DNA from: a virus
IMG/VR virus record: IMGVR_UViG_3300046501_000197
Location: 1 to 51,609 of that record
Length of the DNA stretch: 51,609 bases
Direction: 5' to 3' (one strand)
Part shown: piece after piece, positions 3,508 to 46,739 of the stretch
How positions within the stretch are numbered: position 1 is the stretch's first letter
How the letters are laid out: each line of letters opens with the position of its first letter
Notes under the pieces: generated by a model
Database searches by the model: none
What the model was told of the DNA's origin: nothing
Seen by the model: only the letters and a program-made list of their open reading frames with translations
Position numbers and translations under genes: made by a program

Positions 3508-5499
3508 ATGGCAACTCCCGTCGTCAAGTCGACCAATGGGTTCGGCACACCGGTGACCGTTGTGGCAAGCGGTGGTCTCCCCGTCGATATCGCCACCAAT
3601 GGATTCGGCATTCCGATCATCGAAGTGGCGTCGGGAGGTCTGCCCATCACCTATGCGCAGGGCGGTGGGGTGGTGCCGCCGTTCTCGCCGGCAGATATTA
3701 CCGGTCTTTGGGGCGCTTGGCAGCTCTCCAACTCCACCAGCGATGCCGATGGCATAGCGTCGGTTCCTGCTGCCTTCGGTGGGTCTCGTACGCTTGCTGG
3801 CGGCCCAACTACGCAAAAGCCTGATATCCTCGTGGCTGGTGGGCCGAACGACAAAACGATTGCCCAGTTCACCGCCGCAACATCTGAATACCTTGCGATC
3901 TCTGAAGCCTACCCGCTCGCGACCAGCTTCACGGCAATCATCCCGGTTGCGCCTCGATCGGCGGCCGGCGTTCAAGGCATTCTGCTCGGCAAGCTTTCGG
4001 ACAGCAGTGGCGCGAACCGTATCCGCTTTGTTTCTGGCGCCAACCCTCTCGCTAATCTTGCCGTTCGCCCCAATGGTGCGGGCGCCGAAACCAACGTGCC
4101 TTATCCTGCCGGCTACTCGCAGGCGACGGATGCTTCCAGAATGGATGTCATTGCGATCGTCTATGATGCTGCTGCCGGCACCATGAAGATTGGCATCGGC
4201 GGCGATTTCGGGACGGCGACTGCAGTCGGCACTGGTGGCTTCAACTTCGACTGCATCGGCCGCGCGGGATCTGGCTATGCCGGCATCTTGATCGGCGATC
4301 CTTTGTTCTACAGCAGGGCTCTGTCTGACGCGGAAGTCATCCAGCTTCAGGGATACCTTGCTGATTTCGCCTCGAGCAAATTCTACGTCGCGGCCAACGG
4401 CAATGACAGCAACAAGGGCTGGTCGGCCTCTGCACCTCTTCTGTTGCCGGCGACCGCCGACACCAAAGCTTCGCGCGCAGGCGACCAGGTGCTGCTCAGG
4501 AAGGGCGACCGCTTTACTACGGCGCTCGCTCCTACCGTGGGCGGTACTGCAGCGAAAAAGAAGGTTCTCGGCGCATACGGTACGGGAGCGCGTCCGCAGC
4601 TCTGGGGCGCAGCGCCAGCGACGGGCATCGCATCGTCTGGCGGCGGGATTTACACCCATGCCGATGCTGCTGCGCCGGCCGGTATCATCATCTGCCCGCT
4701 TGGCGCTTCTCGCATGCCGGCGTCTGCCACAGATTTCGCGTGGATGATAAAGGCAGCGTCGAGCATCGCCAACGATCTCGAATGGAGCTGGACGGGTGGC
4801 GTGACTACCATGCGGAGCGACAGCGTCGATTTGACCACGGTTGAAGTGGTCATCATCCCGGCTGGCACCGTCAACGGGTTCGCGCCGAGCTCGACCGCCT
4901 CCTATTATGACTTGGACGGCGTGAGCGTTCGGTTCTGGAGTTCGTTCGGCGTCCGTCCGTTCAATGGTGGGGGCGAATATCGGAACTTCGACTTCCTCGG
5001 CAACTGCAACGATGGCTGCGGCCCGTCGATCAGCAGCGGGCTGACGCTCGACGGCACTGACGGTGAGGCCTCTTTCAACGGGTCGAAGCCGGAAACGTCA
5101 GGCCAAGGCGATGGATGGTCGGATCATGGCGTAACGAAATCTACCCTGACGCGCGTCAAGGCTCGCTGGAACCGCGTCGGCGGCTTCCGTCATGAGGGTG
5201 GTACGACGACGGTCCATAAGGACTGCATCGCCGAAGGCAACAAGCAGGATTACGAGATCCTTGCGCAAGGTGGTACCGGCGGCACGATGCTCATCGACGG
5301 TGGCTCCACCACGGTCACGACTGCGTCTGCGCTCACCAAGGCAGTGAACGCGATCACAGGCGGCGCTACCACGGTGACGGTGAAGAACCATACCATCAAC
5401 CGTCAGAGCGGCAGTGGTGGGGCAGCTTGCAACGCGAACGGCAATGCGATCGTAGACGGTGGCGGCAACGTTCTGAACGGGTTCTCGTCTCTGTTCTAA
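3508..5499 (+). CDS. Tailspike-like protein with LamG-type and beta-helix domains
   Basis: 663 residues. The N-terminus carries two near-identical blocks (TNGFG, then VASGGLP), probably the virion attachment part. Residues about 65-280 resemble a concanavalin/LamG jelly-roll domain. From about residue 291 a FYVAxNGNDSNKG motif opens a long right-handed beta-helix region with a pectate-lyase-like look. The chain ends in short Thr/Val/Gly strands. Such spikes bind and often depolymerise surface polysaccharide. Exopolysaccharide or LPS as the substrate is inference, and no catalytic residues can be fixed by eye. It is the last gene of the fibre operon before a terminator. Confidence 0.7.
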   Translation: MATPVVKSTNGFGTPVTVVASGGLPVDIATNGFGIPIIEVASGGLPITYAQGGGVVPPFSPADITGLWGAWQLSNSTSDADGIASVPAAFGGSRTLAGGPTTQKPDILVAGGPNDKTIAQFTAATSEYLAISEAYPLATSFTAIIPVAPRSAAGVQGILLGKLSDSSGANRIRFVSGANPLANLAVRPNGAGAETNVPYPAGYSQATDASRMDVIAIVYDAAAGTMKIGIGGDFGTATAVGTGGFNFDCIGRAGSGYAGILIGDPLFYSRALSDAEVIQLQGYLADFASSKFYVAANGNDSNKGWSASAPLLLPATADTKASRAGDQVLLRKGDRFTTALAPTVGGTAAKKKVLGAYGTGARPQLWGAAPATGIASSGGGIYTHADAAAPAGIIICPLGASRMPASATDFAWMIKAASSIANDLEWSWTGGVTTMRSDSVDLTTVEVVIIPAGTVNGFAPSSTASYYDLDGVSVRFWSSFGVRPFNGGGEYRNFDFLGNCNDGCGPSISSGLTLDGTDGEASFNGSKPETSGQGDGWSDHGVTKSTLTRVKARWNRVGGFRHEGGTTTVHKDCIAEGNKQDYEILAQGGTGGTMLIDGGSTTVTTASALTKAVNAITGGATTVTVKNHTINRQSGSGGAACNANGNAIVDGGGNVLNGFSSLF

Positions 5500-42979: not shown

Positions 42980-44332
42980 ATGGGTAAGCCGAGCGCGCCG
43001 GAGCCTCCAGATCCGCAGGAAACTGCTGCAGCCCAGACAGCCACAAACGTCTCAACGGCGACAGCAAACAGCTATCTCGGGAATGTCAATCAAGTCACGC
43101 CCTATGGGTCGTTGACTTACACCAACGGCGCAAATCAGTTTGTCGCGGACAAGAACGGGCAGGCTCTCTATCAGTCGCCAACCGGGCGCATCTCTACCAC
43201 GAAGCCAACCGACATGAAGGGTTGGACCGCGCTCGGCACCGGGTACACGGTGCCGACTACCACGGCCACTCAGACGCTTTCGAAAGATCAGCAGCGCCTC
43301 CTGAACATCAATAACGATACTCAGGAGAGCTTGGCGCGGACCGCGAGAAGCTCGTCGGCGCGCATCGGCAACCTGTTGTCCACACCCTTCAGTCTGGGTG
43401 GAGCCCCCGCCGCGGGCGACGCAGGCGCTTTGACTGCGCCTAACTATCAGCGGTTTGCCTCCGGCCCACAGCTTCAAACGACCTACGGGCCGTCTGACAA
43501 TTACAGCAGCAATGTGAAAGAGGTGCAGGACGCGCTTATGACGCGCCTCCAGCCGTCTCTCGATAGCGACCGGCGGGCCTTGGAAACGCGACTTGCGGAG
43601 CAAGGCATCAGCTACGGCTCTCAAGCCTACAACTCTGCTATGGATGACTATAGTCGTGGAGCCAACGATCAGCGGACGTCTGTAGTCCTCAGGGCAGGCG
43701 AAGAACAGTCGCGACTTGCGGGGCTCGATTACCAGCGCGCGGGATTCGGCAACGACGCCAATCAGCAGATGTGGTCGAACGAAAACACGACCACCGGGGC
43801 GAATAATTCGCTTGAAGATCAATCTTTCAATGCCCAGCAGGCGCGCATAGACGCCCAAAACACCCAGCGCTCAAACTTCATCAACGAACAATATGCGATG
43901 CGAAACCAGCCGTTGAACGAAATCTCCGCGCTTATGTCAGGAGGGCAGGTGTCAAACCCGAACTTCGTTCCTACGCAGGGTGCTCAACTGCCGACAGTCG
44001 ATTATGCAGGGTTGGTTCAAAGCAATTATCAAAACCAAGTCGGTGCGTACAACGCGCAGATGGCGCAATCTCAGGGGCTCTTGGGCGGGCTATTTGGTCT
44101 CGGTGCGGCCGGGATCATGGCATCCGACAAGCGTGTCAAACAAGATATCACCCGAGTGGGCGAAGTTGACGGCCAAAAAATCTATCGGTTCCGTTACAAA
44201 GATGGCGGGCCGATGCAGCTCGGTGTTCTTGCTCAGGATATCGAAAAATCTGATCCGGACGCTGTCATGGAAATCGGCGGAGTCAAACACGTCGATTACG
44301 GCAAGCTCTTCCAGTTGGGGGAGGCGGCTTAA
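42980..44332 (+). CDS. Tail/ejection protein with a C-terminal S74-like chaperone segment
   Basis: 450 residues. An Asn/Ser/Gln-rich central part (LETRLAEQGISYGSQAYNSAMDDYSRGANDQRT) is typical of podovirus internal or tail needle proteins. From about residue 383 the sequence ASDKRVKQDITRVGEVDGQKIYRFRYKDGGPMQLGVLAQDIEKSDPDAV matches the intramolecular chaperone (S74) pattern SD.R.K.DI. The segment is short, so it may be a conserved tip rather than a self-cleaving domain. Likely a virion component delivered or exposed at the tail. Confidence 0.7.
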   Translation: MGKPSAPEPPDPQETAAAQTATNVSTATANSYLGNVNQVTPYGSLTYTNGANQFVADKNGQALYQSPTGRISTTKPTDMKGWTALGTGYTVPTTTATQTLSKDQQRLLNINNDTQESLARTARSSSARIGNLLSTPFSLGGAPAAGDAGALTAPNYQRFASGPQLQTTYGPSDNYSSNVKEVQDALMTRLQPSLDSDRRALETRLAEQGISYGSQAYNSAMDDYSRGANDQRTSVVLRAGEEQSRLAGLDYQRAGFGNDANQQMWSNENTTTGANNSLEDQSFNAQQARIDAQNTQRSNFINEQYAMRNQPLNEISALMSGGQVSNPNFVPTQGAQLPTVDYAGLVQSNYQNQVGAYNAQMAQSQGLLGGLFGLGAAGIMASDKRVKQDITRVGEVDGQKIYRFRYKDGGPMQLGVLAQDIEKSDPDAVMEIGGVKHVDYGKLFQLGEAA

Positions 44333-45367: not shown

Positions 45368-46030
45368 ATGGCTACTGCATCGAAACAAGACGTGGGAATT
45401 GAACTGCCGCCGCTGGCGATCCAGTTGATGGAAGTGACGGTTCTCGGAGATTCTCCGCTGATCGTCCATGCTTGGTCCGAGAAGGCCAAGAAGGAAATGC
45501 TCGGCAAGCAGATGAAGACCGCCAAGCAGGCGAAGGAAGCGAAAGACCCCAAGGCCGATTTCGAAAGCTCGCTCTATCGTCTCGGCGATGGCTACGGCTT
45601 CCCGTCGATCGGCTTCAAGGCCGCTGCGGTGACGGCCTGCACGTCTGTCGCGGGGATCACGAAGGTTGCCGCTCGGCAGGCATTCCACATCCTCGGCGAG
45701 GACATCGACGTCAACGGCGCTTTCGAAGGCACAAAGGCCCGCGTCAACCTTGTCCGCATCCACGGTGGCGCCCCTTCGATGCGCGAAGACATGGTGCGGG
45801 TCGGCATGGGGACGGCCGATCTTCGGTATCGCGGCGAGTTCGCCGACTGGCATGCAAAGCTCTTAGTTCGCTACAACGCGAACGTGCTCAGCGAAAGCCA
45901 GATCCTGAACATCATCAACGTCGCCGGCTTCGCTGTCGGCGTCGGGGAATGGAGGCCCGAAAAGGACGGTATGTCTGGCATGTTCCATGTCGCCACGGAA
46001 GCAGAGCACAAGAAGCTGGAGGCCGCGTGA
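45368..46030 (+). CDS. Conserved-looking virion-region protein of unknown function
   Basis: 220 residues from the ATG with a GGAG site. IELPPLAIQLMEVTVLGDSPLIVHAWSEKAKKEMLGKQMK, then YGFPSIGFKAAAVTACTSVAGITKVAARQAFHILGEDIDVNGAF and a second LVRIHGGAPSMREDMVRVGMGTADLRYRGEF. It has the look of a mixed alpha/beta single-domain protein. Such genes occur near ejection genes in rhizobial phages; function unknown. Confidence 0.55.
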   Translation: MATASKQDVGIELPPLAIQLMEVTVLGDSPLIVHAWSEKAKKEMLGKQMKTAKQAKEAKDPKADFESSLYRLGDGYGFPSIGFKAAAVTACTSVAGITKVAARQAFHILGEDIDVNGAFEGTKARVNLVRIHGGAPSMREDMVRVGMGTADLRYRGEFADWHAKLLVRYNANVLSESQILNIINVAGFAVGVGEWRPEKDGMSGMFHVATEAEHKKLEAA

Positions 46031-46548
46031 TGAAGATCGCTGGCTTTGAGTTTTCCGAAGGCGCTCGATTTCAGCCGGGCGCCCAGGCCGACGCCAATCT
46101 CGTCGGCAATCACATCGAAATGCTGCGGGCGAAGTTCAAAGGCGAACTTACCCCGCAAGACATCCTCGACGATGCAAGGCACGACAATTCGCCACTCCAC
46201 TCGTTCTTCGAATGGAATGACAGCGCGGCTGCCGAGCACTACCGCCTACAACAGGCGAGAGGGCTAATTCGCAGCGTCGTGGCGATCTATACTCAGCCGG
46301 ATAAGCCCGCCGTTCGTGCCAGAGCTTATGTCCACATAAATGAGCCCTCGGCGCCTCACTACCGCGAAACATCGCATGCCATGTCACAGACTAAGACGCG
46401 CAAGATGGTGCTCGATCGGGCATGGAATGAACTGAAAGCCTGGAAATCTCGATACAAAGACCTTGAAGAGTTCTCGGCGCTGGTCGGGATTATTGAAACG
46501 ATAGACGCGGACTTCCCGCGTTCATTGAAGAAGATCGGCAAGAACTAA
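46030..46548 (+). CDS. Phage protein of unknown function
   Basis: 172 residues from an ATG one base into the previous stop (TGATG). FQPGAQADANLVGNHIEMLRAKFKGELTPQDILDDARHDNSPLHSFFEWNDSAAAEHYRLQQARGLIRSVV resembles a segment often annotated as hypothetical and found with the preceding gene. The C-terminal part is helical and basic (ELKAWKSRYKDLEEFSALVGIIETI). Confidence 0.55.
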   Translation: MKIAGFEFSEGARFQPGAQADANLVGNHIEMLRAKFKGELTPQDILDDARHDNSPLHSFFEWNDSAAAEHYRLQQARGLIRSVVAIYTQPDKPAVRARAYVHINEPSAPHYRETSHAMSQTKTRKMVLDRAWNELKAWKSRYKDLEEFSALVGIIETIDADFPRSLKKIGKN

Positions 46549-46554
46549 GTGCGG

Positions 46555-46574
46555 AGCCGGATGCCCGTCCGGCT
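46555..46574 (+). repeat. Perfect hairpin opening the pentamer-repeat region
   Basis: AGCCGGA-TGCCCG-TCCGGCT, a 7-bp perfect stem located 6 bases after a stop codon. It has no T-run and leads straight into the repeat stretch, so it is probably part of that element. Confidence 0.5.
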
Positions 46575-46591
46575 GGCAGGGATCAAGGTAG

Positions 46592-46700
46592 GGCAGGCAA
46601 GGCATTGTATGGCATGATGAGGTCAGGCAAGTTCAGTTATGGCAGGCGTGTTATGTTGCGGTCAGGCGAGGCGTGGCGAGGTAAGTCTCGGCAAGCTAAG
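46592..46700 (+). repeat. Degenerate pentamer array (consensus KYRDG), about 22 units
   Basis: Split in fives, the stretch reads GCAAG, GCATT, GTATG, GCATG, ATGAG, GTCAG, GCAAG, TTCAG, TTATG, then after a one-base slip GCGTG, TTATG, TTGCG, GTCAG, GCGAG, GCGTG, GCGAG, GTAAG, TCTCG, GCAAG, CTAAG. Position five is G in nearly every unit and position two is mostly C or T. There is no ORF with a protein-like product, and a five-base period is not codon-related. Sequence varies but period is kept, so something selects the spacing. Confidence 0.65.
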
Positions 46701-46711
46701 CAGACAAGAAG

Positions 46712-46739
46712 GGCGGTTCTCTCGGGAGCCGCCTTTTTT
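46712..46739 (+). terminator. Terminator closing the pentamer-repeat transcript
   Basis: GGCGGTTCT and GGGAGCCGCC pair as a 9-bp stem with two wobbles, followed by six T residues. The array therefore lies in the 3' untranslated end of the upstream transcript or in a small separate RNA. Confidence 0.75.

Follow-up and report, generated by a model that had tools for sequence, protein, structure and literature searches.

A periodic stretch of DNA in a temperate phage

A short stretch of DNA at positions 46549-46739 of a 51.6-kb IMG/VR virus record is built on a period of five bases, and the question that it raises is what such a pattern might encode. The whole record, to which we refer as the window, is that of a temperate tailed phage with an integrase, an S24-type repressor, and terminase subunits. 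An initial annotation described the stretch as an untranslated, G-patterned RNA whose units are too degenerate to be explained by slippage, a description that we judge to be right. The same annotation called it an undescribed element, but the array belongs to VIPR, a relative of CRISPR that was reported in a 2026 preprint (PMC13142463).

As published, VIPR pairs a phage-encoded RAMP protein of ~20 kDa, Vipr, with vrRNAs, which are intergenic RNAs near vipr made of ~9-16 tandem repeats in which GGY alternates with a variable NN pair (PMC13142463). The NN pairs bind double-stranded DNA with one base skipped per unit, and transcription is repressed; the RNA, the binding, the one-base skip, and the repression were demonstrated for SUSP1, an Escherichia phage (PMC13142463). 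In the available text of the report, the minimal locus is vipr plus a vap gene in a phage, and architectures vary among seven types (PMC13142463). From comparison of sequences, we consider it very likely that 46549-46739 is a two-guide VIPR RNA that would be read by Vipr with a one-base skip and whose second guide would be aimed at the S74 gene of competitors.

Architecture of the array

Autocorrelation against shuffled controls bears out the period of five. Dinucleotide-shuffled sequence averages an identity of 0.274 at lag 5, whereas 46575-46709 reaches 0.515 (z 6.2), a value attained in 0 of 2000 shuffles. Identity is high at lags 10 and 15 too, and this is the strongest lag-5 stretch across the whole 51.6-kb window. 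The pentamers of the initial annotation stand, but the KYRDG register assigned to them does not; the natural register is GGY-NN (9 + 9 units, then ~3-4 degenerate ones), so that, as parsed, GGY is the constant part and NN the variable part. On the plus strand, guide 1 (46596-46640) reads GGC-AA GGC-AT TGT-AT GGC-AT GAT-GA GGT-CA GGC-AA GTT-CA GTT-AT, then GGC-A, and its NN pairs are AA AT AT AT GA CA AA CA AT. Guide 2 (46645-46689, plus strand) reads GGC-GT GTT-AT GTT-GC GGT-CA GGC-GA GGC-GT GGC-GA GGT-AA GTC-TC, with the NN pairs GT AT GC CA GA GT GA AA TC. The single one-base slip noted earlier is present, but it is one of two: identical GGCAGGC motifs lie on the plus strand at 46592-46598, where the slip opens guide 1, and at 46641-46647, where it separates guides 1 and 2 and was originally seen. 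GGC-A-GGC serves as a recurring delimiter and divides the array into guides, each with 9 NN pairs. The degenerate 3′ units GGCAA GCTAA GCAGA CAAGA (46690-46709, plus strand) are probably not read as guide, because the guide-2 targets match little past unit 9. The window therefore carries, near vipr, tandem GGY/NN repeats of the vrRNA kind, in two guides of 9 units each with some triplets degenerate.

The perfect 7-bp hairpin and the strong terminator reported at the ends of the array are both present. The 5′ leader (46549-46595, plus strand) consists of a hairpin followed by GGGATCAAGGTAGGGCA; the hairpin has 7 perfect base pairs (46555-46561 with 46568-46574) and is closed by one G-U pair (46562/46567). 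This type of leader is conserved and covarying in 10 loci, in which 94.9% of cells are paired and 3 pairs have changed on both sides, a level of covariation reached in 0/500 shuffles. A second leader type of the clade, GTTACGGCGAGAGTT..CAACCTCGC, is 100% paired and has three doubly changed pairs. At the 3′ end lies an intrinsic terminator (46706-46739, plus strand) with a 15-bp stem and a U run (-21.4 kcal/mol, z -3.0), over which an Rfam search gave its only match, a sub-threshold one to sbrA. A conserved 3′ tail after the repeats is a feature of the SUSP1 clade (PMC13142463), and no such tail follows the repeats here, where only degenerate units and the terminator are found and the conserved structures sit 5′. 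Because architectures vary among the seven types in the available text of the report (PMC13142463), the missing tail counts against membership of the SUSP1 type rather than against VIPR.

The vipr gene and its partner

The second gene upstream of the array (45368-46030, plus strand, 220 aa) is predicted to encode Vipr, a RAMP-fold, guide-binding homolog of SUSP1 Vipr. Its close orthologs are found in 27 IMG/VR loci, and a profile built from 26 orthologs matched exactly one PDB sequence at E<1, that of 36pp, the "SUSP1 Vipr protein" (E 8.2e-7). The alignment with the SUSP1 gene product by hhalign (E 1.3e-8) extends across the Gly-rich C-terminal part. A Foldseek search with the AlphaFold model (pLDDT 82) returned 35 matches at E<=1e-3, and all among the matches listed are CRISPR RAMP complexes (Csm, Cmr, and related).

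Between vipr and the leader lies a candidate vap (VIPR-accessory) gene (46030-46548, plus strand, 172 aa), whose start overlaps the vipr stop (ATGA) and which follows vipr in the related loci of the clade. The predicted fold of its product weakly resembles winged-helix DNA-binding proteins (E 0.2-3), and it has no similarity to SUSP1 vap1. Neither gene has a match in Pfam, and their PHROGs matches are to families of unknown function. Both genes are intact and strongly conserved, and the window locus is phage-borne and has two genes, vipr and a second gene unrelated to vap1. The partner gene of one related locus (L028; 18738-19249 of contig G027) is in two pieces in different frames, one of them with an in-frame TGA, which reflects a sequencing error or a broken copy.

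Arrays in related phages

One profile recovered 305 Vipr relatives in IMG/VR. An array scoring >=35 was found on the vipr strand in 107 of 124 Vipr loci and on the opposite strand in 10; the only two control strands above 35 were diffuse GC-rich coding chains, a parser artefact. As the initial annotation had proposed to check, the array keeps its place in related phages, where it lies straight after vipr or after the partner gene. Triplets of the form GTY are also present in other arrays. The spacings between GGC-A-GGC motifs in related phages are 5n+4, most frequently 49 (25 times), 44 (14 times), and 54 (11 times), which corresponds to guides of 8-10 pairs, and this recurrence indicates that the slips are structure and not a lapse.

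Vipr and arrays sharing the GGC-A-GGC delimiter also occur in Gordonia and Mycobacterium phages. In Gordonia phage UmaThurman (L251), the annotated coding sequence of gene 40, a "hypothetical protein," coincides with a multi-guide GGYNN array (3617-3945) flanked by the vipr homolog (gene 39) and gene 41, and gene 40 is therefore probably no protein gene. The arrays of Mycobacterium phages Saal (L253, 2594-2844) and ByChance (L254, 2648-2844) lie upstream of the vipr homolog. A whole guide module and one further unit distinguish these two closely related phages, a difference that points to turnover of guides by module. Two 11-pair guides of Saal have no exact match in IMG/VR. A second layout is seen in Clostridia MAGs (L041, L042, L043, and L045), which carry a distant Vipr, 40-48% identical, with the array directly after vipr and no partner gene in between.

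The target code

We searched 1.93 Mb of DNA from related phages and prophages, with arrays masked, for targets of 363 guides of >=8 pairs. Contigs fetched by guide pattern were left out, because a contig such as L046, which was fetched with the guide-2 pattern, matches by construction. With one target base skipped after each NN pair, there were 7 perfect targets, compared with 0 for skips of 0, 2, and 3 bases and with a mean of 0.05 (maximum 1) in 100 shuffles. At <=1 mismatch, the skip of one base gave 21 targets, and skips of 0, 2, and 3 gave 2, 1, and 0, respectively (shuffles: mean 2.5, maximum 8). The perfect targets belong to only a few per cent of the guides in the DNA tested. All 7 perfect sites are in codon phase, the wobble base being the one skipped, and the NN frequencies of the guides track codon positions one and two of the sense frame alone (rho 0.59; other frames, -0.59 to 0.13). 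Judged by these target statistics only, it is the NN pairs that specify the DNA target, one base being skipped after each. The period had been said to be unrelated to a reading frame; this is true of the array's own frame and fails for that of the target, in which each NN pair corresponds to one codon with the wobble base skipped.

The genes with perfect targets look like virion genes, as named by context and not by database match: two tape-measure-like genes (>1000 aa), together with tail-type genes, one capsid-like gene, and one internal-virion-like gene. One guide of locus L002 has a one-mismatch match in the partner gene of a different VIPR phage (L116), in agreement with the report of VIPR directed against VIPR (PMC13142463). 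Two different phages (L005 and L022) have the guide GA AA CT TA TG CA AA AA in common, and under the one-base-skip rule it matches DNLYWQNN in L098 exactly.

Candidate targets of the two guides

Guide 2 decodes to GTNATNGCNCANGANGTNGANAANTC, which spells VMAQ(D/E)V(D/E)(K/N)S, the S74 chaperone motif. It has 6 exact matches in IMG/VR, in six phage contigs, all in the frame of G-V(M/I)AQ(D/E)V(D/E)(K/N)S. Guide 2 also matches prophages: across 396 genomes from the family of Phyllobacterium (L029), there are 11 one-mismatch matches, compared with 0 for the reversed control, and 7 of the 11 lie in S74-domain proteins resembling the product of the window's gene at 42980-44332. Because the S74 motif is common, some guide-2 matches represent widely shared sequence. 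The gene at 42980-44332 (plus strand) is the phage's own Peptidase_S74-domain gene (PF13884, E 2.6e-6), a homolog of the guide-2 target genes. At its own site (44225-44251, VLAQDIEKS), 16 of the 18 read bases match guide 2 and 2 differ, a difference that would let the phage escape its own guide only if binding is lost with two mismatches. Read at two letters in five, guide 2 spells part of a structural-type gene of competing phages of the same kind, which the phage could probably silence.

Guide 1 has no convincing target in IMG/VR, in the genomes of the family of Phyllobacterium, or in the Vipr loci. Its 14 exact IMG/VR matches are mostly in AT-rich contigs and its one-mismatch genome matches lie outside convincing genes; we judge both to be chance. 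A match to the divergent vipr gene of L041 (15/18, KLMMLQKQM) was also rejected: three mismatches are the usual chance level, one of the guide pairs is at odds with a Leu that never varies in the close family, and the match became no better after wider sampling of Vipr.

Proposed mechanism and alternatives

We propose that vipr, the vap candidate, and the guide RNA (46549-46739) are probably cotranscribed, with the terminator as the end of the transcript. Vipr would coat the RNA, gripping each GGY triplet, and each NN pair would read two bases of double-stranded DNA. One target base would be skipped after each pair, as others have shown for SUSP1 and as the target statistics suggest here, so that each pair would read one codon minus its wobble base. 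GGC-A-GGC would delimit independent guides of ~9 pairs, possibly by processing at the delimiters. Guide 2 would take the complex to related, competing phages and prophages, where it would settle on their S74-domain gene and presumably block its transcription, and the phage's own S74 copy may escape through its two mismatches.

An alternative that we regard as unlikely is that the two modules form one continuous guide and that the RNA reads through GGC-A-GGC into one longer target. In its favor are L046 and L049, where the guide-2 site is preceded by AAx CAx ATx (K-H-I); these three codons equal the final NN pairs of guide 1, and a single Gly codon falls at the junction. Across all matches with <=1 mismatch, however, neighboring modules fit the flanking target at chance (0.18-0.33 for gaps 0-9), two adjacent guides of L011 match the same gene region 182 bases apart, and the Saal and ByChance arrays differ by a whole module. 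Still a little less probable is a decayed array whose guides are relics out of use, as the degenerate triplets of the window (TGT, GAT, and GTT among them) and the targetless guide 1 might suggest; against such decay, Vipr and the vap candidate are conserved, covariation maintains the leader helix, guide 2 still matches sampled phages exactly, and GTY is not peculiar to this array. The bending, packaging, or coating site, or guideless sponge RNA, of the initial annotation has a G-rich pattern and a period of half a helical turn in its favor, but such DNA-element readings are wrong or unsupported, and we regard them all as highly improbable, given that the variable positions hold codon-like information, that targets appear only under the one-base-skip rule, and that the array goes with the vipr gene and with its strand.

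Relation to SUSP1 VIPR and to CRISPR

The reading of 46549-46739 as a two-guide VIPR RNA makes this locus another member of a kind known since 2026, with a multi-guide layout unlike that of SUSP1. The type II system of SUSP1 (PDB 36pp) shares with that of the window a Vipr RAMP that is Gly-rich in its C-terminal region, GGY/NN pentamers, the one-base-skip code, and a second gene of small size, and both are phage-borne and aimed at competing elements. The SUSP1 RNAs, of ~9-16 repeats, are discrete, are found on both sides of the genes, have a separate 3′ tail apiece, and lack GGC-A-GGC delimiters, whereas the guides of the window are joined head to tail through GGC-A-GGC and follow a leader hairpin at the 5′ end. 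The second genes are unrelated, and the perfect targets found here are virion-type genes of sibling phages instead of the satellites or lysogeny regulators targeted by SUSP1. Class 1 CRISPR-Cas systems (Csm/Cas7 RAMPs) share the RAMP fold of the guide-binding protein and the presence of several guides per array, but the window array has no near-identical repeats with unique spacers, only its GGY triplets being constant, and its pairing is gapped where that of CRISPR is continuous.

With its concatenated guides, slip delimiters, and 5′ leader and no SUSP1-type tail, the locus may represent one of the further types of PMC13142463, the available text of which mentions "staggered arrays with overlapping vrRNAs" that may or may not equal the concatenated-guide layout. 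We tentatively suggest, as a possibility that we hold at somewhat under even confidence, a branch of VIPR in which concatenated guides are split by a GGY-A-GGY slip, are gained and lost as whole modules, and have as their main targets the virion genes carried by sibling phages and the VIPR genes of rivals. Such a branch would be a compact guide array without CRISPR-type repeats. The target statistics lend independent support to the VIPR target code, from another clade and without use of the authors' data. Conserved structural-type genes of the closest relatives are the apparent object of contest between such phages, and because the code ignores the wobble base, synonymous changes would be of no help to the victim. 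Cultured mycobacteriophages and Gordonia phages carry such arrays, which makes the delimitation of guides, the turnover of modules, and interference between phages accessible to laboratory tests.

Elsewhere in the window, an AAA ATPase gene (PF00004; 11033-12448, minus strand) lies close to the phage integrase and is possibly unusual cargo for a temperate phage.
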